A DNA stretch of 64,000 nt from Campylobacterales bacterium. Its GTDB lineage: Bacteria > Campylobacterota > Campylobacteria > Campylobacterales > Sulfurimonadaceae. Both the position numbers and the translations under genes were made by a program. The DNA lies in NCBI GenBank assembly GCA_026390165.1, contig JAPLGM010000012.1, forward strand, positions 62,001 to 126,000, read 5' to 3'. A model generated the notes under the pieces. The model was not told the DNA's origin. It made no database searches and saw only the letters and a list, made by a program, of their open reading frames with translations. Positions 2,014 to 39,066 of this stretch are shown here, in pieces (position 1 is the first letter of the stretch; every line of letters begins with the position of its first letter).

Positions 2014-2021
2014 TGCGGGCA

Positions 2022-2044
2022 TTGTCAATAGCTGGTATTGACAA
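2022..2044. other. 9-base-pair inverted repeat
   Basis: TTGTCAATA (2022-2030) and TATTGACAA (2036-2044) are perfect arms around GCTGG. No T-run follows. It could be the 3' hairpin of the upstream RNA-like element, or an operator. Confidence 0.45.
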
Positions 2045-2164
2045 GTAAATCATCAATGTCTTCGTTCGTAATACAGACTTAGTCCCACTTCCGATATTCA
2101 GAAAAAAAGGGGATTATCTATTCAATCTTCTTCCGCGTTGTGAATCTCTTTATGAGTTTTGGGA

Positions 2165-2170
2165 TATAAT
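2165..2170 (+). promoter_or_regulatory. -10 box (TATAAT) for the second MNT gene
   Basis: TATAAT sits 28 bases before the ATG at 2199, and a strong GAGGAGG ribosome site (2185-2191) lies between them. Confidence 0.5.
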
Positions 2171-2198
2171 TTACTCAATTACAAAGAGGAGGGATCAG

Positions 2199-2537
2199 AT
2201 GGTAAATATTGAAGCGCTCAAACATGAAATTGTTGAATGTCTTAAGCCTCTTGATCCTGATAAGATTATCTTGTTTGGTTCTTATGCCTATGGCACTCCT
2301 ACGGAAGATAGTGACATTGATCTGTTTTTGGTAAAAGATGATCTGAACATAGAAGATGGTAGAGATTATAATTTACAAGCAAGAAAACAACTGCGACCTA
2401 TCATCATGAATCATCATACCAACGGTATAGATATTCTATCCGCACCATCGAGTTTTATCAATGCACGTGAAGATTATTTTTACAAAGTAGACATCCTACA
2501 AAATGGAAAAGTGTTGTATAAACGAAACGTCAGCTAA
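2199..2537 (+). CDS. second MNT-type nucleotidyltransferase, partner gene missing or truncated
   Basis: This 112-residue protein has the MNT motif LFGSYAYGTPTEDSDIDLFL (G-S-x10-D-x-D) and a later NGIDILSAP segment with the third acidic residue. It is a different subfamily from the MNT at 1389-1691: it is longer and has the phrase KPLDPDKIILFGSYA, typical of MNT genes followed by a HEPN gene. Here no HEPN gene follows. The +1 frame across the stop (from about 2512) reads INETSAKDYISEYH and ends at 2616, which could be the start of a lost HEPN partner. The ribosome site and promoter are strong, so the protein is probably made. Confidence 0.8.
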   Translation: MVNIEALKHEIVECLKPLDPDKIILFGSYAYGTPTEDSDIDLFLVKDDLNIEDGRDYNLQARKQLRPIIMNHHTNGIDILSAPSSFINAREDYFYKVDILQNGKVLYKRNVS

Positions 2538-2654
2538 AGATTATATTAGTGAATACCATATGCGTGAATCGTACCCCTCACCCCATAGAAGACTACCCAG
2601 TGTGATGAACTTTTAAAGATGGAAGCGGAATATGATATTCCTGAGGGTGAATAA
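2512..2654 (+). pseudogene. short gene remnants between the lone MNT and nadC
   Basis: Two short open stretches in different frames fill this gap. One frame runs from about 2512 to a stop at 2614-2616 and begins like a possible HEPN partner. The other ends at 2652-2654 and encodes CDELLKMEAEYDIPEGE, which has the composition of a genuine protein C-terminus. It ends 21 bases before the nadC start, just ahead of nadC's ribosome site. I read the second as the tail of a gene once located upstream of nadC and cut off by arrival of the island. Neither piece is long enough to name. Confidence 0.3.
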
Positions 2655-2675
2655 AATAGAGAGGAGGATGGTGTT

Positions 2676-3491
2676 ATGATCGAAAAATTTATCAAAGATG
2701 TATTGGCCGAGGATGTAGGGCGTGGGGATTTGTATGCTCGGGTTTCGCCTGCTGTAGATGCGAGTGCCAAAATTATTGCCAAAAGCGATGGGGTTTTAGC
2801 AGGGGAAGAGTATCTTTGTGTTTTGGCTCAAATGGAAAAATTTGAGATTGTGTGGCACAAGCATGACGGTGAACGGTTTGTCAAAGGGGATATTCTGATG
2901 GAGCTTAGCGGTGACTCGCATACGCTGTTGCGAATCGAGCGTACCTTGCTCAATATGCTCCTGCACGCCAGTTCGATTGCGACGTTGACCCGTCAATACG
3001 TTGATCTCGTGGCTCCCTACGGGACGAAACTTCTCGATACCCGAAAGACGCGTCCGATGTTGCGCAATTTCGAGAAATATGCGACCCGTATCGGGGGGGC
3101 GACGAATCACCGTATGGGGCTGGATGATGCGCTGATGCTCAAAGATACCCATCTCAAAACGATTGATAATTTGGAAGAATTTATGGTGAAAGCACGGGAA
3201 AAGATCCCTTTTACCTCCAAGATAGAGATTGAAGCGGAAGATTTTGAGATGGTCAAAAAAGCGATGAAGGCAGGGGCGGATATCGTGATGTGTGATAATA
3301 TGAGCCCTGAGCAGCTCAACGAAATTGTGGCGTATAAGTGGGAACATTATCCAAGTGTTTTGCTGGAAGCGAGTGGGAATATTTCACTCACAACTATTGA
3401 AAGTTATGCACGCAGTGGGGTCGATGCGATTAGCACGGGTTCCCTGATTCATCAAGCGGCTTGGATTGATCTGTCAATGAAAATGGATTAA
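2676..3491 (+). CDS. nadC: nicotinate-nucleotide pyrophosphorylase (quinolinate phosphoribosyltransferase)
   Basis: NadC converts quinolinate and PRPP to nicotinate mononucleotide, CO2 and pyrophosphate in de novo NAD synthesis. The 271-residue protein has the usual length and the family signatures: LLRIERTLLNMLLHASSIAT (about 85-104), DTRKTRP (121-127), the segment from GGATNHRMGLDD to LKDTHL (about 140-159), and EASGNIS followed by GVDAISTGSL near the C-terminus, which bind the phosphates. The start at 2676 is preceded by GAGGAGG at 2660-2666. nadA often neighbours nadC in this phylum; here the upstream side is the accessory island. flhB follows after 9 bases, so nadC and flhB are probably cotranscribed. 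Confidence 0.97.
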   Translation: MIEKFIKDVLAEDVGRGDLYARVSPAVDASAKIIAKSDGVLAGEEYLCVLAQMEKFEIVWHKHDGERFVKGDILMELSGDSHTLLRIERTLLNMLLHASSIATLTRQYVDLVAPYGTKLLDTRKTRPMLRNFEKYATRIGGATNHRMGLDDALMLKDTHLKTIDNLEEFMVKAREKIPFTSKIEIEAEDFEMVKKAMKAGADIVMCDNMSPEQLNEIVAYKWEHYPSVLLEASGNISLTTIESYARSGVDAISTGSLIHQAAWIDLSMKMD

Positions 3492-3500
3492 GGAGTTTAA

Positions 3501-4568
3501 ATGGCCGATGATATGGAGAAAACCGAAGAACCGACCCCCAAGAAGCTCGAAGATGCCAGAGCTGAGGGGAATGTTCCAAAAAGCCAGGATGCGGCTGGGG
3601 TTATTATCCTTTTTGTCGCAATTATGGCATTGCTTATGCTTTTACCTTTTATCAGTGAACATCTTTTATCCTTGGCTCGGTATTACTTTTCGTTGATGAA
3701 TCATCCGTTGGAAGAGGTCAATCTCATTGATATTGCTTTTGTGACGTTTCGAGAGTTTATACTAATGATACTCCCCTTTACCGCGATTGTTGCCCTTGCT
3801 GGGGTAGCGGGGACGGTTGCACAGATTGGATTTAATTTTACGACCAAGCCGCTCACCCCTAATTTTTCGAAGATTGATCCTATTGCAGGGCTTAAAAATA
3901 TGTTGAGTATGCAAAAGCTGATCGAATCCTTCAAAACCACCTTTAAATCCTTTACCGCGTTGGGGGTTGGATTTCTCTTTTTTTGGTCTTATATCAAAGA
4001 GCTTCCTACGGTTGCAATGTTCGATTTATGGGCACAGATGGCGTGGTTCAAGGAGAAAGTGATTATTATCGCTGCGGTTATGCTCGTTATTTTGTTTCTT
4101 TTTGCGATGATTGATCTCTTTTTGACCCGTAAACACTATTTTGATAAACTGAAAATGTCGCTGCAAGAGATTAAAGATGAGATGAAGAATATGGAAGGGG
4201 ATCCCCATATTAAGGCGAAAATACGTCAGATTCAGATGCAAGCGGCGCGAAAGCGAATGATGTCCTCCGTTCCGACTGCCGATGTTGTCGTCACCAATCC
4301 AACCCACTACGCTGTGGCGATCAAATACGATGAGACGAAGCACCATGCTCCCGTCGTTGTTGCCAAAGGGGTCGATAATATTGCCATTCAAATCAAAAAA
4401 GTGGCTCGTGAAAACGGGGTGCACGTGATGGAGAGTCCACCCTTGGCGCGTGCCCTTTATAAAGATGTCGAGATTGATCACCCTGTACCAGAAGCACTTT
4501 TTGCTGCTGTTGCGGAAGTATTGGCATATGTATATAAGATGGGGAAGAAGAAGCGAGGTAATAGATAA
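3501..4568 (+). CDS. flhB: flagellar type III export apparatus protein FlhB
   Basis: FlhB is the inner-membrane export-gate component that switches substrate from rod/hook to filament proteins. The 355-residue protein begins with the typical cytosolic stretch EKTEEPTPKKLEDARAEGNV. It has four membrane helices (about 30-55, 85-115, 145-165 and 185-210) and a C-terminal cytoplasmic domain. The self-cleavage motif NPTH is at residues 266-269. It lies between nadC and a signalling cassette, not in the main flagellar cluster at 34-39 kb. The start at 3501 has AAGGAG just upstream, and the stop is immediately followed by the next ATG. Confidence 0.97.
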   Translation: MADDMEKTEEPTPKKLEDARAEGNVPKSQDAAGVIILFVAIMALLMLLPFISEHLLSLARYYFSLMNHPLEEVNLIDIAFVTFREFILMILPFTAIVALAGVAGTVAQIGFNFTTKPLTPNFSKIDPIAGLKNMLSMQKLIESFKTTFKSFTALGVGFLFFWSYIKELPTVAMFDLWAQMAWFKEKVIIIAAVMLVILFLFAMIDLFLTRKHYFDKLKMSLQEIKDEMKNMEGDPHIKAKIRQIQMQAARKRMMSSVPTADVVVTNPTHYAVAIKYDETKHHAPVVVAKGVDNIAIQIKKVARENGVHVMESPPLARALYKDVEIDHPVPEALFAAVAEVLAYVYKMGKKKRGNR

Positions 4569-5696
4569 ATGAAAAAATGGCAGCAGTTGTTGGGGAATAA
4601 AAAGATAATTGCGGCTATTTTTCTGGTGATTATGCTTATCCTAGGGGCTATTTTTATCCGTTTGGAGGATGAAGTAACCTCGCAAACACTCGGGCGACTT
4701 AGCGATCAGCTCTCGATGGCGTTGAATAATCAACTCGAGAAGGAGCGTTCCACCGATTTGCGCTATGCGTTGATACTGAGTCAAAATGGGGCGTTGGGTG
4801 ACGCACTGGAGCAAGAGGATGAAGATAAAGGGTTTGATATTCTTTCGGAAGTGATGGAGTCGATTAAAATATATACGAATACATTGATCCGTTCTCAGAT
4901 CATTACGGCCGATTATTTTATTTTTGCGCGGAGTTGGGACAATTCGTATGCGGGGATGCCGCTGGATTTTAATCGTCCTGATCTGCTCTATTTTCAAAAT
5001 CATAAAAAACCGCGCGTGGCTATCGAAGTGGGGCGTAAGCTGGGGGTAAAAGCGACGGTTCCTATCTACAATAAGACAAATATGATCGGATTTGTTGAGG
5101 TGGTTTCCTTTTTCGAATCGACACAAGAGTATTTCGACCGTTTAGGGGTGGATATGTATATTCTTATGGATGAGAAATTTTATGAAACGGCGGTGTTTAT
5201 GCAAGAGAATCCCGCTATTGCCAAGGAGTATATTTTAGCCAATGCGAAATACACACAAAGCGATTTGAAACTGCTCAATGGAATCGATTATAAAGTGTTT
5301 CGGCAAACGCGTGTACTCTATCGTCACGGGAAATACCTTTTTTATGAACCGATGAAAAACGGGGAGGGGGAGATTGTCGGTGCATTTGTTTTTGCACTCA
5401 CCACCAAGCAAGTTTCAGCGTATACCCATTCTGATGAAGAGGATATTTCATTTTTGATCCACTTAAGCCGTGATGAACTGTATGATATGATGATGAAAAA
5501 ATCACTCGACAATGCACTGTTTCAAAGTGTCTACGACAAAGATCTCCTCTATCTAAAAGATAGTGTCGCCCCTGAAGATAGGGAGTTATTTTTAGATGAG
5601 GCGCGTGAACGGCTCAATACTTATACTAAAGAGGAGCTGATTGGTATGCTGTTGAACTACAAAGTCGCCAAAGAGGTAAAAGGGGAGATTCAATGA
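4569..5696 (+). CDS. membrane-anchored sensor-like protein (Cache-like periplasmic domain, no output domain)
   Basis: This 375-residue protein has a short cytoplasmic N-terminus, one membrane helix (about residues 13-30) and a large periplasmic part. The pattern up to about residue 280 is that of double-Cache sensory domains: a long helix, then alternating strands with ARSWDNSYAGMP, VAIEVGRKLGVKATVP and YFDRLGVDMYILMDE. The C-terminal 90 residues are helical and acidic. No kinase, HAMP, methyl-accepting or GGDEF domain is present. It overlaps the response-regulator gene by ATGA, and the kinase follows, so it probably acts as a separate periplasmic sensor for that pair. The Cache assignment is by pattern and is moderately sure; the ligand is unknown. 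Confidence 0.6.
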   Translation: MKKWQQLLGNKKIIAAIFLVIMLILGAIFIRLEDEVTSQTLGRLSDQLSMALNNQLEKERSTDLRYALILSQNGALGDALEQEDEDKGFDILSEVMESIKIYTNTLIRSQIITADYFIFARSWDNSYAGMPLDFNRPDLLYFQNHKKPRVAIEVGRKLGVKATVPIYNKTNMIGFVEVVSFFESTQEYFDRLGVDMYILMDEKFYETAVFMQENPAIAKEYILANAKYTQSDLKLLNGIDYKVFRQTRVLYRHGKYLFYEPMKNGEGEIVGAFVFALTTKQVSAYTHSDEEDISFLIHLSRDELYDMMMKKSLDNALFQSVYDKDLLYLKDSVAPEDRELFLDEARERLNTYTKEELIGMLLNYKVAKEVKGEIQ

Positions 5697-6346
5697 GGGT
5701 ATTATTGCTGGAAGATGAGTATATGTTGCGTATCAGTGTGACGGAATTTTTGGAAGAGTTGGGATTTGAAGTGACGGGGTTTTCCAATGGAGACAGGGTA
5801 CATGAAGCGACATACGAAACCCATTTTGATCTCTATTTGCTCGATGTTAATGTTCCCGGTATAAATGGATTTGAACTTTTGCGAACGCTGCGTAAAGAGG
5901 GGGATAAAACCCCAGCTATTTTCCTCACTTCAATGGTTAATGTGAATGATCTCCAAGAGGGGTATAAATCGGGATGTTGCGATTATATTCGTAAACCTTT
6001 TGATCTCTCGGAATTGCAATTACGGATAATGCATGCCCTTAAAAGTCACTATCACGACGGAGAGAATAAGCTCGATTTTGGGGAGGGGCTTGTGTATGAC
6101 ACAGAGTATTTTACCCTTACTCATAATGGAGAAACAATCGGATTGAGTAAAACGGAAAAAGAGATATTCGGGGTATTACTCAAACACAAAAATCAGATTG
6201 TTTCAGTCGATATGTTCCAAAATGAGATTTGGGGAGAGTATGTCGATCCCGCCAATATTCGGGTCCAGATCAATAATTTGCGTAAAAAACTCCCATTAGA
6301 AATTATTCAAAATCGGCGGGGACTGGGATACATCATTGAACGATAA
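5693..6346 (+). CDS. OmpR/PhoB-family response regulator
   Basis: This 217-residue protein has an N-terminal receiver domain. The acidic pocket is E7-D8-E9 and the phospho-acceptor is D51 (LYLLDVNVPGINGF); the conserved Thr/Ser is in FLTSM and the Lys in CDYIRKPFD, about residue 100. A C-terminal winged helix (about 125-217) has the recognition region VDPANIRVQINNLRKKL and ends RRGLGYIIE, as in OmpR-type regulators. It should bind promoter DNA on phosphorylation by the kinase encoded next. Its start overlaps the previous stop as ATGA, and its end overlaps the kinase start by 11 bases. Confidence 0.9.
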   Translation: MRVLLLEDEYMLRISVTEFLEELGFEVTGFSNGDRVHEATYETHFDLYLLDVNVPGINGFELLRTLRKEGDKTPAIFLTSMVNVNDLQEGYKSGCCDYIRKPFDLSELQLRIMHALKSHYHDGENKLDFGEGLVYDTEYFTLTHNGETIGLSKTEKEIFGVLLKHKNQIVSVDMFQNEIWGEYVDPANIRVQINNLRKKLPLEIIQNRRGLGYIIER

Positions 6347-7502
6347 GCTCTATGCCCTTAAAAATGCTTTTTGGTACACGATGTTTTTTGCGGTATTACT
6401 GTTGACGCCGACCTATCTCTACGTTACCTATATGAAATATGTCACCGAAATTCAATACGAATTTAAACTAAAAAAGCAATCCCATCTGATTTTACGCGCG
6501 ATGGAAGAGTTCGATCCCAAAGAGAACGAGCCCTTCTTGTATCCCCGTTACCGATCGTTTCAGTCGGGGTTGTATGATGTTCATTTTACCCCTGTTTTTA
6601 CCCTTATAACGCATCCGTTAACTATGCAAAAAGGAGGGTATCATATAGAAGATGGGTATGCCTATCTCGTGGTGGCTTTGCCAGAGAGGCGTTATTTTGA
6701 GGCATCGTATTTGGTCATTGGGGGAGCACTCTCGTATGTGAGTATCTATAGGGATATCGTGATAATTCTCCTTGGAATAACCACCCTTATTTTTGTGTTG
6801 TCTCTCTTTTTTCTCGACCGCTTTGCCTTACCGTTTCAGCGTTTGAATAAAAGGCTAGATCGTTTTATCAAAGATTCGATGCACGAGATCAATACCCCCC
6901 TCTCTATTATCAATATTAATATTGACCTCTACAACCGCTCCAATGCGACGAATAAATATTTGCAACGGATCAAAGCTGCCACTAAAACTCTCGCAACCCT
7001 CTACAACGATATGGATTATTTGATTAAGAATGAACGTCTCTCTTTTGCGTATGAAACGATTGATTTGAGTCATTATTTACAAGAACGAATTGATTATTTT
7101 TCCGAAGTAGCGGCCTTGAAAAATATCACGATAGAGGGGCATATCGCGCAAGAGATCAAGATACTGTTTAATCCGACACAGCTTCAGCGTATTATTGATA
7201 ATAATCTCTCCAATGCCATTAAATATTCATACGAAGAGGGAAACATTGAGGTTTCACTTCTCGTGGAGGATAAGACGTGTGTTATGGCGTTTAAAGATCA
7301 GGGTGTCGGTATCCAGAATGTAGATCAAATATTTGAGCGCTATTATCGTGAGAATCAAGACAAAGGGGGATTTGGGATTGGGCTTAATATTGTCAAATCG
7401 ATTATTGATAAAGCGGGAATTGAACTCAACATCGACTCCGAATACGGCAAAGGAAGTATTTTTTCGTATACTTTTAGTCCTCCTATCACCCTTTGTGCGT
7501 AA
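6336..7502 (+). CDS. membrane sensor histidine kinase, partner of the adjacent regulator
   Basis: This 388-residue kinase starts at a TTG at 6336 inside the regulator gene. It has two membrane helices (about 12-33 and 140-160) around a short periplasmic loop of about 100 residues, and no clear HAMP. The phospho-acceptor is H183 in DSMHEINTPL. The N box has N290 and N293 (NNLSNAIKYS), followed by DQGVGI and GGFGIGLNIVKSI. The small periplasmic domain and the preceding stand-alone Cache-like gene suggest the input is shared between two proteins. The sox promoter region follows about 40-75 bases downstream, so control of sulfur oxidation is possible but not shown. Confidence 0.88.
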   Translation: MNDKLYALKNAFWYTMFFAVLLLTPTYLYVTYMKYVTEIQYEFKLKKQSHLILRAMEEFDPKENEPFLYPRYRSFQSGLYDVHFTPVFTLITHPLTMQKGGYHIEDGYAYLVVALPERRYFEASYLVIGGALSYVSIYRDIVIILLGITTLIFVLSLFFLDRFALPFQRLNKRLDRFIKDSMHEINTPLSIININIDLYNRSNATNKYLQRIKAATKTLATLYNDMDYLIKNERLSFAYETIDLSHYLQERIDYFSEVAALKNITIEGHIAQEIKILFNPTQLQRIIDNNLSNAIKYSYEEGNIEVSLLVEDKTCVMAFKDQGVGIQNVDQIFERYYRENQDKGGFGIGLNIVKSIIDKAGIELNIDSEYGKGSIFSYTFSPPITLCA

Positions 7503-7540
7503 CATCTCCCTTTTTTTACGTTAATTTTACACTTCTCTTC

Positions 7541-7546
7541 TACAAT
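7541..7546 (+). promoter_or_regulatory. probable -10 box of the sox operon
   Basis: TACAAT lies 31 bases upstream of the soxX ATG in the 74-base gap after the kinase gene. A T-rich tract (7508-7517) precedes it, which suits Campylobacterota promoters. No clear -35 box or operator was seen. Confidence 0.4.
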
Positions 7547-7576
7547 ACTCTTCGAAATAAAGAACTAGGAGAGTCA

Positions 7577-8095
7577 ATGCGAACAATGATATTGCTTGGA
7601 ATCGCTACCTTTTTGGGTGCTGCTGATTTGTCGCAGGTGATTGAATCACCCGATGCGACGGCTATTCTCAAAAAAGATGCCCTTCCTGCACCCAAAATAG
7701 CGGTGATGATCGAAGGGTGTATTAGCAGTGAACCTGCTGTAATTGCACGGGGAAAATACCTTTTTCATAATCTAAACGGAAAAGATACCAAAGATCCAGC
7801 ACCTGAAGGGTTGGCGAAAATTTTGCCCAATGGTAAAGAGAAACAATACGGTAACTGTGTTGCTTGTCACAATATCGAGGGGGCAAAAGGGTATGGCAAT
7901 ATCGGTCCTGATTTGAGTAACTATAAAGCACTTTATATGGACAGTGGCGCACGAGCGGCTCAGTTTGTTTATCAAAAAATTGCCGATGCACGTATTGATA
8001 ATCCAACAAGTCATATGACAATCAATCTTACAAATGGCTTGTTTAGTGAGCGTGAAGTGTGTGATTTGACGTCGTATATCGTATCAAAAAAATAA
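7577..8095 (+). CDS. soxX: SoxX, c-type cytochrome subunit of SoxXA
   Basis: SoxXA covalently attaches thiosulfate to SoxY in the periplasm. The start at 7577 is chosen because AGGAGA (7567-7572) precedes it and a signal peptide follows at once (MRTMILLGIATFLGAA). An upstream in-frame start at 7493 would add 28 unlikely residues within the kinase gene. The mature part has one haem site, C94-V-A-C-H98, with YGNCVACH and IGPDLSNY typical of SoxX. The 172-residue length is normal. It is the first gene of soxX-Y-Z-A-B. Confidence 0.92.
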   Translation: MRTMILLGIATFLGAADLSQVIESPDATAILKKDALPAPKIAVMIEGCISSEPAVIARGKYLFHNLNGKDTKDPAPEGLAKILPNGKEKQYGNCVACHNIEGAKGYGNIGPDLSNYKALYMDSGARAAQFVYQKIADARIDNPTSHMTINLTNGLFSEREVCDLTSYIVSKK

Positions 8096-28694: not shown

Positions 28695-29567
28695 CTACTT
28701 AAGGGTCACAGGGGGAAAATAGATATGGGCCAAGGTTGACCCCTCTGCTGCAAATTTCTTGAAAAATTTATCCATAGGGTCTTCTTTGTTCCAAACAGGA
28801 TCTTTGATTTTTGCAAGGACTTCAACGCGTTTTTTCGCATCAAATTCTACCCCAAGGGAATCAACGAGTTTCACCTCTTTGGCTTGGGATGCGGTAAAAA
28901 TATGAGCATCTGCATAGTCGCTGCTGCGGTTTAAATCGAGTTTGCGCGCACGGGCAACGTCACCGACAAACATCGAGTAGGTTCCACCGATCACTTTATT
29001 AAGTTCGGTACGCTCTGCTGTGTTCCATGGGCGATCAAATGTCCCTACTTGTTTATACGTCCCCGCATGGACAACTTGGGTTTTTATCCCCACTTTTTGC
29101 ATCAATTCGGAGATGTCCGCCCCCTCCATGATGACCCCTATAGAGCCAACCATACTCCCCGGATTAGCGATGATCTCATTTCCCCAGATGGCGGAGTAAT
29201 AGCCACCGCTTGCCATAATTCCTGCGGCATAAACAACGACGGGCTTTGCTTCACGAAGTCGTTTGATGGCGTAAGAAATTTCAACGGAGGGGGCAACGGC
29301 ACCGCCAGGTGAGTCGATACTAAAGAGTACCCCTTTGACCTCTTTATTTTCACGCGCTTTATCGAGTTGATCGACAATTGAGGTTGCGTCCAATATGGGA
29401 CCAACGAGTGAAATTTTCTGGAGGTTATACGACGCAAGCCCCTCTTCACTGGAGGGGAGAATGAGCCAAAGTACAAACACTACTAATAATGTTGCTTTAA
29501 AGTGCGCTTGTATAAATCGTAATCCTGTGGCTAAACACGAACCGATTTTTTTGATGATTTCCATCAT
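28695..29567 (-). CDS. sppA: signal peptide peptidase SppA, S49 family (short form)
   Basis: This 290-residue protein has an N-terminal membrane helix (about 22-40) and a single S49 domain. SIDSPGGAVAPSVEIS is the first core strand. The nucleophile Ser is in AAGIMASGGYYSAI, and the general-base Lys is probably in GIKTQVVHAGTYKQVGTFDR. It cuts leftover signal peptides in the inner membrane. One S49 domain instead of the two of E. coli SppA makes it the SppA36/PspA type. It ends convergently with xseA, 3 bases apart, and overlaps the upstream hydrolase by ATGA. Confidence 0.9.
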   Translation of the reverse strand: MMEIIKKIGSCLATGLRFIQAHFKATLLVVFVLWLILPSSEEGLASYNLQKISLVGPILDATSIVDQLDKARENKEVKGVLFSIDSPGGAVAPSVEISYAIKRLREAKPVVVYAAGIMASGGYYSAIWGNEIIANPGSMVGSIGVIMEGADISELMQKVGIKTQVVHAGTYKQVGTFDRPWNTAERTELNKVIGGTYSMFVGDVARARKLDLNRSSDYADAHIFTASQAKEVKLVDSLGVEFDAKKRVEVLAKIKDPVWNKEDPMDKFFKKFAAEGSTLAHIYFPPVTLK

Positions 29568-30775
29568 TTTATTTTTTCTCCTTGGATATATATGGATTCG
29601 ATTTGGTGTGGTTGGGTGAGCAGATGGATCGGTAACTGATCCGTAATGGGGTAATCAACCCGAACAACAAGAATGTCTGCATCATAATTAGGGGCGATTG
29701 ACCCACAATTGAGTCTAAGTGCCTTCGCTGCATCCACTGTGACACTTTTCCAAAGTTGTTTGGCGAGCGGGAGGAGAGGTTGATTCGGATGGATAAAAAG
29801 GGCAACTTTCATCTCTTCAAACAGATCAAGGGTATAGTTGGAACTTAGTCCATCCGTTCCAACTATCCAACGTATTTTTTGGGTATCAAGACGCTCAATA
29901 TCCAGCACACCGTTACCGAGAAGTCGGTTGGAGATGGGGCAGTGGATAACGGTATGCCCTTTTTGAGATAGTGTCAATAACTCCTCGTCATTGGCGTGAA
30001 CACCATGGGTAAAGAGAGTAGGAACATCGTTAAAATAGCTCAAAAACTCCTCTGCGGTATTCGCCGCAATCGATTGTTTGAGAAAATTCTGAAAGAAGGG
30101 CTGAAACTCGCCGCTATTGTCATCGAGCCATTGACGCTCAGAGAGACTCTCCATGAAATGGGCGGTAACTCGCGTCTTATGTGCTTGGGCGTATTGTAGA
30201 GCTTTTTGAATGAGGACACGGTGGACAGAGTAGGGAGAGTGGATAGCGATAGAGGGGTGAAATCCTTCACGTCGTACTTCTTGAGAGGCAAATAATCGCT
30301 CTTGAAAATCACCGTACAGTGCATCCGCCATAAGGGGGTCCGAACCGATAAGTTCGTTGAAATAGACTACTTTTTGAGGGGTTGATGCACACGCTTCGAG
30401 ATCAAAACCATATGAACTCACTGCACCAAAAGCGGTGATCCCCTTGTTTAGCATGGTTTGTGCAGCGTGTTGCATACAGGTAGCATCACAGTTGTTGATT
30501 AGCTCATCGCGATGGGTGATAACACTGGAGAGCCACGGCATAAACTCTCCATACGTGAGAGTAGAGCGGTTGGCACTAAATTCAAGATGAACATGGGGAT
30601 TGATTAGCCCGCTCATTAGGACTGAACCCTCTCCTAGCTCTTCACAGGCATTTCCATACTGGGCTCTAAGTTCATCATTGGGGGCAATGGTTACAATGGT
30701 TTTATCAAATACGATACCGTGATCTTTGTAGATCGTATCGGGGGTAAAAATAACGGCAGAGAGAACTATCTTCAC
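29564..30775 (-). CDS. aminofutalosine deaminase-type amidohydrolase
   Basis: This 403-residue amidohydrolase starts at a GTG and has the first metal motif as LINPHVHLEFSANRS, with HVHLEFS in place of the common HxH-TH form. Further ligands are in IHSPYSVH, FTHGVHAN and GTDGLSSNYTLD. This matches the Campylobacterota family represented by Nitratiruptor Nis_0429 and C. jejuni Cj0067c, which deaminates 6-amino-6-deoxyfutalosine in the futalosine route to menaquinone. It is coupled to sppA by ATGA, the same pairing as in C. jejuni. The substrate is inferred from family membership. Confidence 0.85.
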   Translation of the reverse strand: MKIVLSAVIFTPDTIYKDHGIVFDKTIVTIAPNDELRAQYGNACEELGEGSVLMSGLINPHVHLEFSANRSTLTYGEFMPWLSSVITHRDELINNCDATCMQHAAQTMLNKGITAFGAVSSYGFDLEACASTPQKVVYFNELIGSDPLMADALYGDFQERLFASQEVRREGFHPSIAIHSPYSVHRVLIQKALQYAQAHKTRVTAHFMESLSERQWLDDNSGEFQPFFQNFLKQSIAANTAEEFLSYFNDVPTLFTHGVHANDEELLTLSQKGHTVIHCPISNRLLGNGVLDIERLDTQKIRWIVGTDGLSSNYTLDLFEEMKVALFIHPNQPLLPLAKQLWKSVTVDAAKALRLNCGSIAPNYDADILVVRVDYPITDQLPIHLLTQPHQIESIYIQGEKIK

Positions 30776-30917: not shown

Positions 30918-31277
30918 ATGAAAGTCCTCGTAGTGGATGATTCCAAATTGGCACGATTGTCATTGATTAAAACGTTAAAAGAGTATGAGCCTTCTGCGGA
31001 GATATTTGAAGCGGAAAATGGTGCCATTGGGGTCGAATTTTTCAAAGCTGAACATCCAAGGGTCGTTTTTCTGGATTTGACGATGCCGGTGATGGATGGG
31101 TATGAGGCATTGAAGCTGATGATAGAGATTGATCCAAAAGCGCAGGTTGTTGTGGTTTCGGCCGATATTCAGACACAAGCTCAGGCACGCGTATTGTCAT
31201 TGGGAGCTAAGTTAATGGTTCCTAAACCAATCAATTCAGAAAAGATGTTAGCTGTCCTTCAACAACTAGTCTTTTAA
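30918..31277 (+). CDS. stand-alone CheY-like receiver protein
   Basis: This 119-residue receiver domain has D8-D9 (VVDDSKL), the phospho-acceptor Asp in VVFLDLTMPVMDGYEAL (about D54), the conserved Ser in VVVSADIQ and the Lys in LMVPKPIN. There is no output domain. It begins an operon with a CheC-like phosphatase and a PAS-GGDEF cyclase. Its phosphorylation state is therefore probably cleared by the CheC-like protein and read by the cyclase or by the motor. No kinase is encoded in the operon. Confidence 0.9.
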   Translation: MKVLVVDDSKLARLSLIKTLKEYEPSAEIFEAENGAIGVEFFKAEHPRVVFLDLTMPVMDGYEALKLMIEIDPKAQVVVVSADIQTQAQARVLSLGAKLMVPKPINSEKMLAVLQQLVF

Positions 31278-31295
31278 CTATATTCAAGGAATACG

Positions 31296-31913
31296 ATGCA
31301 AGCAAGTGAATTTTCAGACGATCATTTAGATATTCTTAAGGAATTAATGAATATTGCAATGGGAAATGCAACGGCGAGTATTGCTGATTTACTGCAAGCA
31401 TTTGGCACTATGCATATCCCCTATATATCGGTGAGCGATCTGAACGGATTAAAATCATTTATCGAAGAGACTATTCCTAATGATCGACAATATTATGTTA
31501 CCAAGCAACTGTTTGGAGGGATGTTCGGCGGTGAATTTATCTTTGTCATGACCGATGAATCGGCAGTTAATCTTGGAAATTATTTGTACGATATTTCGAA
31601 GCCGGAGCGTGCAGATATACTGGATGCTGTCGTCGAATTGACCAATATTTTGAGTGCTACCATCGTGAGTCGTTTGACGGAAGAACTGAACACGAAAGTA
31701 CAATTTTTTGTCCCCTCAACCGAACTGGTGGAAGGTAATAATTTAATAGGGCTGGCAGAGATTCTCGATTACCATAAAATTATCATTGTCAGTACCCAAA
31801 TGGTGTTTCAAACTCAAAATATCAGCGGTTATATTTTTATTTTAACCAAAGGGGAGATGATTGAACGGCTTCGGCATCTCATTGATCAAAAATTGGAAGA
31901 ACTCTACGCATGA
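31296..31913 (+). CDS. CheC-like phosphatase
   Basis: This 205-residue protein has two CheC-type signatures: DILKELMNIAMGNATASIADLL (about 10-31, the E-x2-N active motif) and a second helix DILDAVVELTNILSATIVSRL (about 108-128, again E-x2-N). Both active sites are therefore present, as in CheC. CheC-type proteins dephosphorylate CheY-P. Here the natural substrate should be the receiver protein encoded just upstream (18-base gap). The gene downstream overlaps by ATGA. Confidence 0.85.
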   Translation: MQASEFSDDHLDILKELMNIAMGNATASIADLLQAFGTMHIPYISVSDLNGLKSFIEETIPNDRQYYVTKQLFGGMFGGEFIFVMTDESAVNLGNYLYDISKPERADILDAVVELTNILSATIVSRLTEELNTKVQFFVPSTELVEGNNLIGLAEILDYHKIIIVSTQMVFQTQNISGYIFILTKGEMIERLRHLIDQKLEELYA

Positions 31914-32869
31914 GCGAGAACTTAGAGTATTGTACAATTGTTTTTGATTCACTGGAAAACGGAACATTAATTATAGATGAAAATTGTATCGTTTGGGCAT
32001 GGAACAAATGGCTGGAGATCAATACGGGGATTTCATCTGAGAGTATTATTGGAAAAAGTTTGGAGCTGTTTTACCCTGAAATTAATTACAGAGGGTTTCA
32101 GCGCAAAATTCGGACGACCCTTCGCCTCTCTACCCCCACTTTTTATGATGCTTCGTTAAGTAACCGTTTCATTACCATTCCACGCAATAAAATTAGCACC
32201 TCTTTATTAACAACAATGCAGCTGCAAGTAACCATATCTCCTTATATCGCTGAGATGCAACGGGTAATGGTTTCGATTCATGATATCAGTGATCTTCATG
32301 AACTTAAAATGACCCTTCAGCAAAAGATGGCGGAGATTGTCCATTTGAATACTATATTAACCAAAGATCGAAAAAGGATTGAAATTCTTTCCATCACCGA
32401 TCCCTTGACAAAACTCTATAACCGTCAAAAGTTGAATGATGTTTTAGAAATGATGTTGCTGCGACGCCATTGGAATGAAGAAAACTCTTTTGGGATGATA
32501 ATCACTGATGTCGATTATTTTAAAAAAGTGAATGATACGTATGGGCATCAAGTGGGGGATAAAGTGCTGATCGCAGTTGCCAATATCCTTTCTCAAACTA
32601 TTCGTACAGGTGATATTTTGGCCAGATGGGGCGGAGAAGAGTTTGTTGTGTTGGTTTCGGATGTGGATAAAGAGAAGATTTGTTTTGTTGCTGAAAAACT
32701 ACGTACCGCCATCGAGCAGATGAATATTCCAGATATGGGAACCATTACGGCATCGTTTGGAGTATCTCTTTTTGTTGAGGGTGATACGGATGAAACGTTG
32801 ATGTATCGGTCGGATCTAGCCTTGTATCGTGCCAAAAAGAATGGGAGAAATAGAGTCGAATTCTCTTAA
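31910..32869 (+). CDS. PAS-GGDEF diguanylate cyclase
   Basis: This soluble 319-residue protein has an N-terminal PAS domain (about 5-120, with ENGTLIIDENCIVWAWNKWL). A coiled linker (MAEIVHLNTILTKDRKRIEI) leads to a GGDEF domain with GGEEF at 241-245. The usual N-terminal strand and the DYFKKVNDTYGHQVGD motif are intact, so it should be active. The residues before the GGEEF (TGDILARW) lack an RxxD I-site at the usual place, so product inhibition may be absent. It is coupled to the CheC-like gene. Confidence 0.92.
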   Translation: MSENLEYCTIVFDSLENGTLIIDENCIVWAWNKWLEINTGISSESIIGKSLELFYPEINYRGFQRKIRTTLRLSTPTFYDASLSNRFITIPRNKISTSLLTTMQLQVTISPYIAEMQRVMVSIHDISDLHELKMTLQQKMAEIVHLNTILTKDRKRIEILSITDPLTKLYNRQKLNDVLEMMLLRRHWNEENSFGMIITDVDYFKKVNDTYGHQVGDKVLIAVANILSQTIRTGDILARWGGEEFVVLVSDVDKEKICFVAEKLRTAIEQMNIPDMGTITASFGVSLFVEGDTDETLMYRSDLALYRAKKNGRNRVEFS

Positions 32870-32955: not shown

Positions 32956-33432
32956 ATGAAAATAGCAGTAATTCAAGGTCCAAATCTCAATATGTTAGGG
33001 GTACGTGATACACAAGTATACGGTCCGATGCGTTTGGAACAGATCCATGCACAAATGAAAGATTTTGCCGCGCAAAACGGCGTAGAGATTGAATTTTATC
33101 AAAGTAATCTTGAGGGTGAGATTGTTGATCGACTCCAAGAGTGTTATGGAGATGCGGATGGAATTATTATTAATCCAGCGGCGTACACTCACACCTCTAT
33201 CGCGATTCGTGATGCGATTAGTGCGGTCAATATTCCGACAATTGAAGTGCATATCAGTAATATTTATCGTCGTGAAGAGTTTCGCCAAAAAAGTATGACG
33301 GCGCCAGCGTGCACCTCGTCTATTATCGGGTTTGGACCATTTGGGTATCATTTGGCAATGGTAGGGATGATGCAAATTTTGAGTGAAATTCAAGCAATGC
33401 GCCAAGCACAACAGGATGAGATACAAGAATAA
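32956..33432 (+). CDS. aroQ: 3-dehydroquinate dehydratase, type II
   Basis: AroQ dehydrates 3-dehydroquinate in the shikimate pathway. The 158-residue protein has [13 protein letters not shown] at the N-terminus, [33 protein letters not shown] and the catalytic [14 protein letters not shown] with its His. Type II enzymes form dodecamers. The gene lies next to folK and flhF, an order conserved in C. jejuni. Confidence 0.97.
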
Positions 33433-38197: not shown

Positions 38198-39066
38198 GTG
38201 ATATAACGGGGTTGTTCTCCCAAGAGGCAGTAGCAACAATTGAAGGGCTAACAGGGCAAGTTCCCTCAATCTCTTTTAAAGAGGGTGAAAATATTTCGAT
38301 TGTCAGTAATGTCATCCCCCCTATTGGGTGTGTCTATTTAAGCTTTAGCGGTGCCGCATCAGGGAAAGGGATGGTGATGGTTCCCCCTATGTTGGCTACG
38401 GCATTGGGTGATATGATGCTCGGTGGTGATGGCGAGGGAAAGGAGTCCATGAACGATGATGATCTTGATGCCCTCAAGGAGATCATTTCCAATATTATGG
38501 GTGCTATGAGTACAACTCTCTCCTCTCAAAAAGAGCTTCCAAAATTTTCCATTAAAACGGAGAATGCCATTTTTATTGGTGAAAATGGGGAGATTGATCT
38601 TGACCATTTTGTTAAAATGTATATTTTTAATTTTTCTTTGGGAGAGATAAAATCATTCATGATGTTAGCGATTGATGCGAATATTCTTGAAGCATTAGAG
38701 GGAGCATCAAAAAGAGAGGATCCCCCTTATATAAATAAAAGCGATCACTCAACACCGATGAATGAGGGGGTATTCCCATCACGTAAGCTCGATGAGACGG
38801 AAATGAAGAATATTGGTTTGATTTTAGACGTAAAACTCCCCGTCCGCGTTCGTATCGGTAAGAAAAAGATGTTACTCAAGGATGTTTTGAGTATGGATAT
38901 CGGTTCCGTTATTGAGCTCAATCAATTGGCGAATGATCCTCTCGATATTTTAGTCGATGATAACGTGATTGCACAGGGGGAAGTGGTGATCGTGGACGGA
39001 AATTTCGGTGTTCAAATCACCTCTATCGGAAGTAAACGTGATCGTCTGACAAAATTGAAAGGGTAA
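38194..39066 (+). CDS. fliY: flagellar motor switch protein FliY (FliN-type)
   Basis: This 290-residue protein joins an N-terminal CheC-like region (about 20-170, with LKEIISNIMGAMSTTLSSQ) to a C-terminal SpoA/FliN domain (about 210-290, with ILDVKLPVRVRIGKKKMLLKDVLSMDIGSVIELNQ). It matches FliY of Campylobacter and Helicobacter. In those genera FliY coexists with a separate FliN and forms part of the switch complex. The CheC-type E-x2-N is partly kept (LDALKEIISNI), so residual phosphatase activity is possible. Confidence 0.93.
   Translation: MSDITGLFSQEAVATIEGLTGQVPSISFKEGENISIVSNVIPPIGCVYLSFSGAASGKGMVMVPPMLATALGDMMLGGDGEGKESMNDDDLDALKEIISNIMGAMSTTLSSQKELPKFSIKTENAIFIGENGEIDLDHFVKMYIFNFSLGEIKSFMMLAIDANILEALEGASKREDPPYINKSDHSTPMNEGVFPSRKLDETEMKNIGLILDVKLPVRVRIGKKKMLLKDVLSMDIGSVIELNQLANDPLDILVDDNVIAQGEVVIVDGNFGVQITSIGSKRDRLTKLKG

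Follow-up and report, generated by a model that had tools for sequence, protein, structure and literature searches.

The pdcABC unit of Burkholderia thailandensis couples a single receiver and a CheC-type phosphatase to a diguanylate cyclase. By the account of Wang et al. 2022 given in PMC9899790, phosphorylated PdcC binds the PAS domain of the cyclase PdcA and inhibits it, and the phosphatase PdcB relieves this inhibition; PMC12421958 also reports repression of PdcA by PdcC. In a table of PMC9899790, Bcam2836 and PdcA share the same B. pseudomallei counterpart. Deletion of bcam2836 is reported to raise swimming (PMC6335245), and deletion of BCAM2837, described as a pseudogene in strain J2315, to impair swarming (PMC3296584). 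Response regulators of the Psyr_0886 type, composed of a receiver plus CheC, appear as orphan regulators in the lists of PMC2222644 and PMC5654926, and receivers of the Arcobacter CheYc-CheC type are classed in PMC9321776 as chemosensory rather than two-component.

The window, that is, the whole stretch of 64,000 nucleotides that was analysed, contains a locus of this kind at positions 30918-32869, where reading of the ORFs confirmed three real genes, all on the + strand. The first (30918..31277) encodes a single-domain receiver of 119 aa, CheY-like and PdcC-like by ORF, Pfam (Response_reg, 1e-21) and residue alignment, with the codon of the predicted phospho-acceptor D53 placed by translation and alignment at 31074..31076. 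The second, after a gap of 18 bp, encodes a CheC-type, PdcB-like phosphatase of 205 aa (31296..31913), assigned from its ORF, Pfam (CheC 4e-10 and CheX 5e-10), a profile match and a model. It overlaps by 4 bp the gene for a PdcA-like PAS-GGDEF diguanylate cyclase of 319 aa (31910..32869; GGDEF 2e-44 and PAS 8e-6 in Pfam). Alignment and profile searches placed the cyclase's N-terminal PAS domain, which is common to cyclase, kinase and output-less versions of the third gene, at 31913..32356. The GGDEF domain (residues 162-315 in Pfam, 32393..32854) has an intact active site, GGEEF (32630..32644), and an intact inhibitory site of the RxxD type, RTGD (32603..32614). Outside the module, family matches identified mqnX on the - strand to the left (29564..30775), encoding an aminofutalosine deaminase family hydrolase (NCBIfam PRK08418, 514 bits, cut-off 320), and aroQ, a type II dehydroquinase gene, on the + strand to the right (32956..33432).

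The dN/dS values against two near relatives were 0.06-0.12 in each of the receiver, CheC, PAS and GGDEF parts, indicating that the trio is under purifying selection and is more than a set of chance ORFs. A site scan found no terminator-like site at the unit, and its 11 promoter-like matches were close to chance (mean 7.9, sd 2.7 in shuffles).

The active-site consensus of CheC proteins, attributed to Muff and Ordal, is said to be D/S-x3-E-x2-N-x22-P. A motif scan showed that both sites of the window CheC match it exactly, namely D12-x3-E16-x2-N19-x22-P42 (31329..31421, + strand) and D110-x3-E114-x2-N117-x22-P140 (31623..31715, + strand). The initial annotation, a receiver followed by a CheC with both active motifs and a cyclase, is thus borne out by the ORFs, the Pfam matches and the exact motif spacing. 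The profile of the protein matched the Thermotoga maritima CheC structure 1XKR at 6e-14, and its model (pLDDT 86) superposed on 1XKR with a Z of 23.2 and 2.4 A over 194 residues. The predicted fold is that of CheC, and the motifs point to a two-site phosphatase with putative CheY-P activity. Strict matches at both sites occur in 43 of 47 GGDEF-type units and in all but one of the 25 kinase-type units described below. The model of the cyclase was weak in the PAS part, with a mean pLDDT of 72 and several stretches below 50.

Receiver, CheC and PAS-GGDEF genes are also found in a B. cenocepacia plasmid record (L287), a locus that from its order and content is probably BCAM2836/BCAM2837. Profiles made from Campylobacterota only matched its receiver at E 2e-32, its CheC at 8e-18 and its PAS at 5e-21, with identities to the B. 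cenocepacia proteins of 18-42% over the three parts (PAS 18%, CheC 25%). By this homology the window unit is a distant relative of PdcABC, the closest described system. The reading preferred here, at a probability of about 0.62, is that the unit is a PdcABC-like switch in which a PAS-bound receiver holds the cyclase down. A kinase encoded elsewhere in the genome would phosphorylate D53 of the receiver, which in this state would dock on the cyclase's N-terminal PAS domain and keep the enzyme inhibited. CheC would strip off the phosphoryl group, releasing the cyclase to make c-di-GMP. For the window unit we infer the contact between receiver and PAS, the action of CheC on this receiver, and the involvement of a distant kinase. 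The sign of control, with the phosphorylated receiver as inhibitor, would follow by analogy with B. thailandensis as presented in the papers citing that work.

The residues of the receiver agree with the first of these steps. D7, D8, D53, S81 and K103 are all present in the residue alignment, and the tally of triad receivers, with either kind of output, shows no exception to D7, D8, D53 and K103 wherever the position is filled, so that the window receiver is predicted to be phosphorylatable. Two further positions, D83 and Q85 of the SADxQ motif (residues 81-85 of the window receiver), do not vary in any triad receiver with a tallied residue, and could be a contact for CheC or PAS.

These residues also bear on the cross-talk between chemotaxis signalling and c-di-GMP that the initial annotation had proposed; in such a branch of chemotaxis CheA would phosphorylate the window receiver and so couple taxis to c-di-GMP. 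Receiver and phosphatase do come from chemotaxis-type families in Pfam, a receiver beside cheC in Arcobacter is treated as chemosensory in PMC9321776, and a related unit on a Nostoc plasmid adjoins cheA-cheW genes. However, FliM-binding CheYs are described in PMC9321776 as keeping W58, K91, K119 and Y106 (E. coli numbering), and the window receiver, mapped onto this numbering through D57, T87 and K109, has L54, Q85, V113 and M100 at these positions, of which 54, 85 and 100 were also tallied across the triad receivers. With the FliM-contact residues absent, nothing ties the window receiver to the flagellar motor. Furthermore, the ORFs directly flanking the unit include no che genes, and many relatives encode a kinase as the third gene. 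A link to flagellar chemotaxis is therefore not supported by the residues, and a branch of chemotaxis of this kind seems quite improbable.

The same annotation had stated that the unit has no dedicated kinase, and Pfam agrees: no kinase gene lies within it. The genome contains 107 receiver and 18 Hpt matches, with no kinase assignable to the unit. Two CheX units of this genome, on contigs C5 and C11, were considered as a kinase source and rejected, being different paralogues (CheX with another N-terminal domain) with no link to the window unit. The one on C5 (L126, G000:C5:34000-44000, at 2015-6869) is a second phosphatase-receiver-cyclase unit with a kinase-like gene, comprising an NMT1-HATPase protein of 828 aa, CheX, a receiver, a GGDEF protein and, besides these, a short protein similar to the N-terminal part of the cyclase. 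The one on C11 (L125, G000:C11:15000-27000, at 2610-7922) has in a row a CheX protein with a weak STAS match, a CHAD protein, a HATPase kinase, CheX and a receiver. Within the window, at 38200-39000, a FliY-like protein with a FliN C-terminal domain and a CheX match below the cut-off is another possible phosphatase nearby.

The genus of the window genome (g1) is here called Sulfuricurvum, after the Sulfuricurvum MAGs that are the nearest named relatives of this genome (G000, 2.64 Mb). CheC was found in 19 of its 37 genomes, the window genome included, and the order in each of the 19 is receiver, CheC, PAS-GGDEF, the cyclase of G012 reading as two ORFs; the three genes are inherited jointly. 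In 17 of these genomes the unit is located beside mqnX, toward aroQ, and in G004 and G031 it is elsewhere in the genome, where a binning error is possible. Among the 18 triad-less genomes mqnX and aroQ are directly adjacent in 14; two have other genes between them, in one aroQ has other neighbours and the stretch lacks mqnX, and one reaches a contig end. Adjacency of the two genes extends to other families of the order, where it was seen in 10 of the 13 aroQ loci that were read. With mqnX on its left, aroQ on its right and the two adjacent in most triad-less genomes, the unit does lie between conserved neighbours, as first annotated.

A tree of MqnX from 34 genomes (G031, with its unit elsewhere, scored as absent; G004, G018 and G034 left out) showed that presence of the unit at the mqnX-aroQ site is scattered and no more clustered than shuffled labels, with 10 changes, at least 6 of them forced by starred branches, and 125 of 500 shuffles as low. 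This scatter fits repeated loss from one site and does not prove it. The N-terminal PAS profile gave strong matches in exactly those genomes with CheC (14 of the 25 genomes G000-G024). Weak matches were seen in G006 (E 8e-4) and elsewhere in G000 (E 1e-3); G037, from another family and with no CheC match, gave a partial one (E 1e-8). Most cyclases of the genus (about 430 aa) contain a second PAS domain, which is absent from the window cyclase and its closest relatives.

The gap between mqnX and aroQ looks like an insertion-prone spot. In G015 (L106, G015:C3, at 4225-7658), which is among the 17 genomes with the unit at this site, a 7TMR-DISM-HisKA_2 histidine kinase and two ORFs lie between the cyclase and aroQ, and this kinase is a possible candidate for the kinase of the unit. 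Other genes fill or border the gap in further genomes of the genus (L100, L104, L088); a 1398-aa ORF in L104 and a 350-aa ORF in L100 had no Pfam match at E 1e-3.

A search of 397 Campylobacterota genomes with the CheC profile (E 1e-12 or better) found CheC in 57 places of 55 genomes, comprising L158-L206, L109, L110 and six Sulfuricurvum loci. Domains were called with our own profiles of three to eight sequences each. A homologous PAS is encoded beside CheC in all 57 places, and its output is a GGDEF domain in 33 and a histidine kinase in 23, the remaining one being cut off by a contig end. The receiver was found in 55 places; in the other two (L194 and L197) CheC and a PAS-kinase are present and these profiles detected no receiver. 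For the third genes of the phylum that were checked, Pfam agrees (GGDEF in L011, L019 and L109; kinase in L108 and L110). A kinase forms part of the unit in L108, L110, L043 and 22 of the 49 loci L158-L206. Of the 24 loci in family f9, 20 have a PAS-histidine kinase as third gene and 4 a PAS-GGDEF.

The constancy of PAS beside CheC, slightly greater than that of the receiver, would suit a reversed control in which CheC is the partner that contacts the PAS domain, with the receiver no more than a modulator of CheC. The interaction reported in Burkholderia is, however, between PdcC and PAS, according to the statements in PMC9899790 and PMC12421958, and we regard the reversed arrangement as very improbable indeed.

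A tree built from receiver, CheC and PAS (72 rows, L206 left out) required three output changes. With L043 left out, AU tests on this tree rejected a common origin of all GGDEF outputs (p 4e-8), and likewise every pairing of the three GGDEF groups (p 6e-4, 3e-7 and 1e-60). A tree of the GGDEF domain itself, with 22 of the 47 triad GGDEF domains and 31 others, mainly from five genomes, rejected a single clade for the three groups together (p 0.003) and for f20 joined to either of the others (p 0.04 and 1e-4); the Sulfuricurvum/g23 and f9 groups as one clade were not rejected (p 0.5), so that by itself this tree supports only two sources. Both trees come from quick searches and contain some long branches, and the groups were named after inspecting the first tree, so that the p values flatter the case. 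At least three output changes within Campylobacterota, from kinase to cyclase or the reverse, are supported by these phylogenies.

Beyond the phylum, 369 genomes of Gammaproteobacteria, the class given in the title of the MAG behind L043, were searched for CheC at E 1e-15 or better. It was present in 57 genomes at 63 places, all of which were read as 62 loci. By script, PAS follows CheC in 58 of these loci: as PAS-GGDEF in 48, as PAS-kinase in a minority of 6, and with no output seen in 4, one of which (L256) runs off the end of the stretch. The script's distance rule assigned no PAS to the other 4, among them L300, where a PAS-kinase follows a second CheC.

In 28 of the 62 loci our own profiles found receiver and CheC fused in one protein; in the fused proteins of L258 and L289 Pfam recognised only the receiver half at E 1e-3, so the CheC call there rests on our own profile (97 and 75 bits). 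Such fusions strengthen the annotated pairing of phosphatase with receiver.

Plasmids also encode relatives of the unit. A search with the window CheC as query gave no match, and 26 named plasmid records contain a relative of the fused protein; seven were read. Besides the B. cenocepacia record, these comprise four (Vibrio sp. HDW18, V. campbellii, Aeromonas caviae and Pseudomonas asturiensis) in which the gene for the fused protein precedes a PAS gene that stands alone, with no output; the record of V. coralliilyticus has receiver, CheC and PAS-kinase, and that of Nostoc has receiver, CheC/CheX and PAS-kinase-receiver. Relatives of the trio are found in many bacteria, and what is attached to the sensor (cyclase, kinase or nothing) differs by lineage. 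As for the "mini-operon" of the initial annotation, the trio stands and its local character does not, since it is a widespread module, related to PdcABC of Burkholderia, whose third gene is a PAS-histidine kinase in other lineages.

PAS domains often bind ligands, and the one in this unit could be a plain ligand sensor, which counts against the switch reading. The PAS would then sense a ligand or redox state alone, and receiver and CheC would form a separate short circuit sharing the operon, such as a phosphate sink or a motility output. The two phylum places with no receiver found and the 4 gammaproteobacterial loci scored as CheC without PAS agree with such independence. Against it, strong PAS matches in the genus occur only where CheC does, and an output-less PAS beside a fused receiver-CheC makes little sense unless the PAS works with the receiver or CheC. 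We consider the separate circuit unlikely. The PdcABC-like switch leads one to expect a fixed receiver-CheC-PAS core, a varying output and output-less PAS genes, if PAS is the docking site of the receiver. Across the homologues compared, PAS is the fixed partner, and the attached output is a GGDEF domain, a histidine kinase or nothing.

A wider reading, which we hold tentatively and put a little under even odds, is that receiver, CheC and PAS form a portable core with an exchangeable effector, the phosphorylated receiver gripping the PAS whatever follows it, and that kinase and cyclase were exchanged at least three times in Campylobacterota with the core kept. With a cyclase as output the core would control c-di-GMP; with a histidine kinase it would form a closed loop, the kinase being throttled by its own product and CheC resetting it; with no output the PAS would act as a bare adaptor. 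A literature search turned up neither the exchangeable output nor the stand-alone PAS versions, and no account of the module as such in Campylobacterota; this is weak evidence of absence, as subscription papers were mostly outside its reach. The exchangeable output would be the new part, the kind of module itself being already known.

This interpretation places an orphan-looking receiver and a "chemotaxis" phosphatase in a defined c-di-GMP control module and supplies a mechanism that is ready to be tested. It also suggests that a receiver-gripped PAS is a reusable switch for cyclases or kinases, and the kinase versions offer a direct way of asking whether feedback of a response regulator on its own kinase can run through a PAS domain.

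In SiaC-SiaD and WspR-type systems (structure 7e6g was among the matches) the cyclase is likewise governed by a partner or a receiver. To our knowledge, the partners there differ from those of the window unit, and we know of no PAS-receiver contact in them. Compared with CheC-type phosphatases, the window CheC shares the fold and the two active sites of the T. maritima protein, and is apparently dedicated to a non-flagellar receiver. The REC-CheC regulators of the Psyr_0886 type differ in having both domains in one protein, and the accounts in PMC2222644 and PMC5654926, as far as they were available, mention no PAS partner. Arcobacter CheYc-CheC is likewise a single receiver beside cheC in Campylobacterota (PMC9321776). 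If family f9 is the Arcobacter group, which is a guess, the PAS-kinase of its own in 20 of 24 f9 units argues against the chemosensory view expressed in that source. The closest likeness is with PdcABC and BCAM2836-BCAM2837: compared with the B. cenocepacia proteins, the window has the same order of receiver, CheC and PAS-GGDEF with each part homologous, the trio side by side on one strand and the homologous PAS before the GGDEF domain. The Burkholderia unit belongs to a different phylum, and differs from those of Campylobacterota in that most Sulfuricurvum cyclases have a second PAS domain and related lineages have versions with a kinase output.
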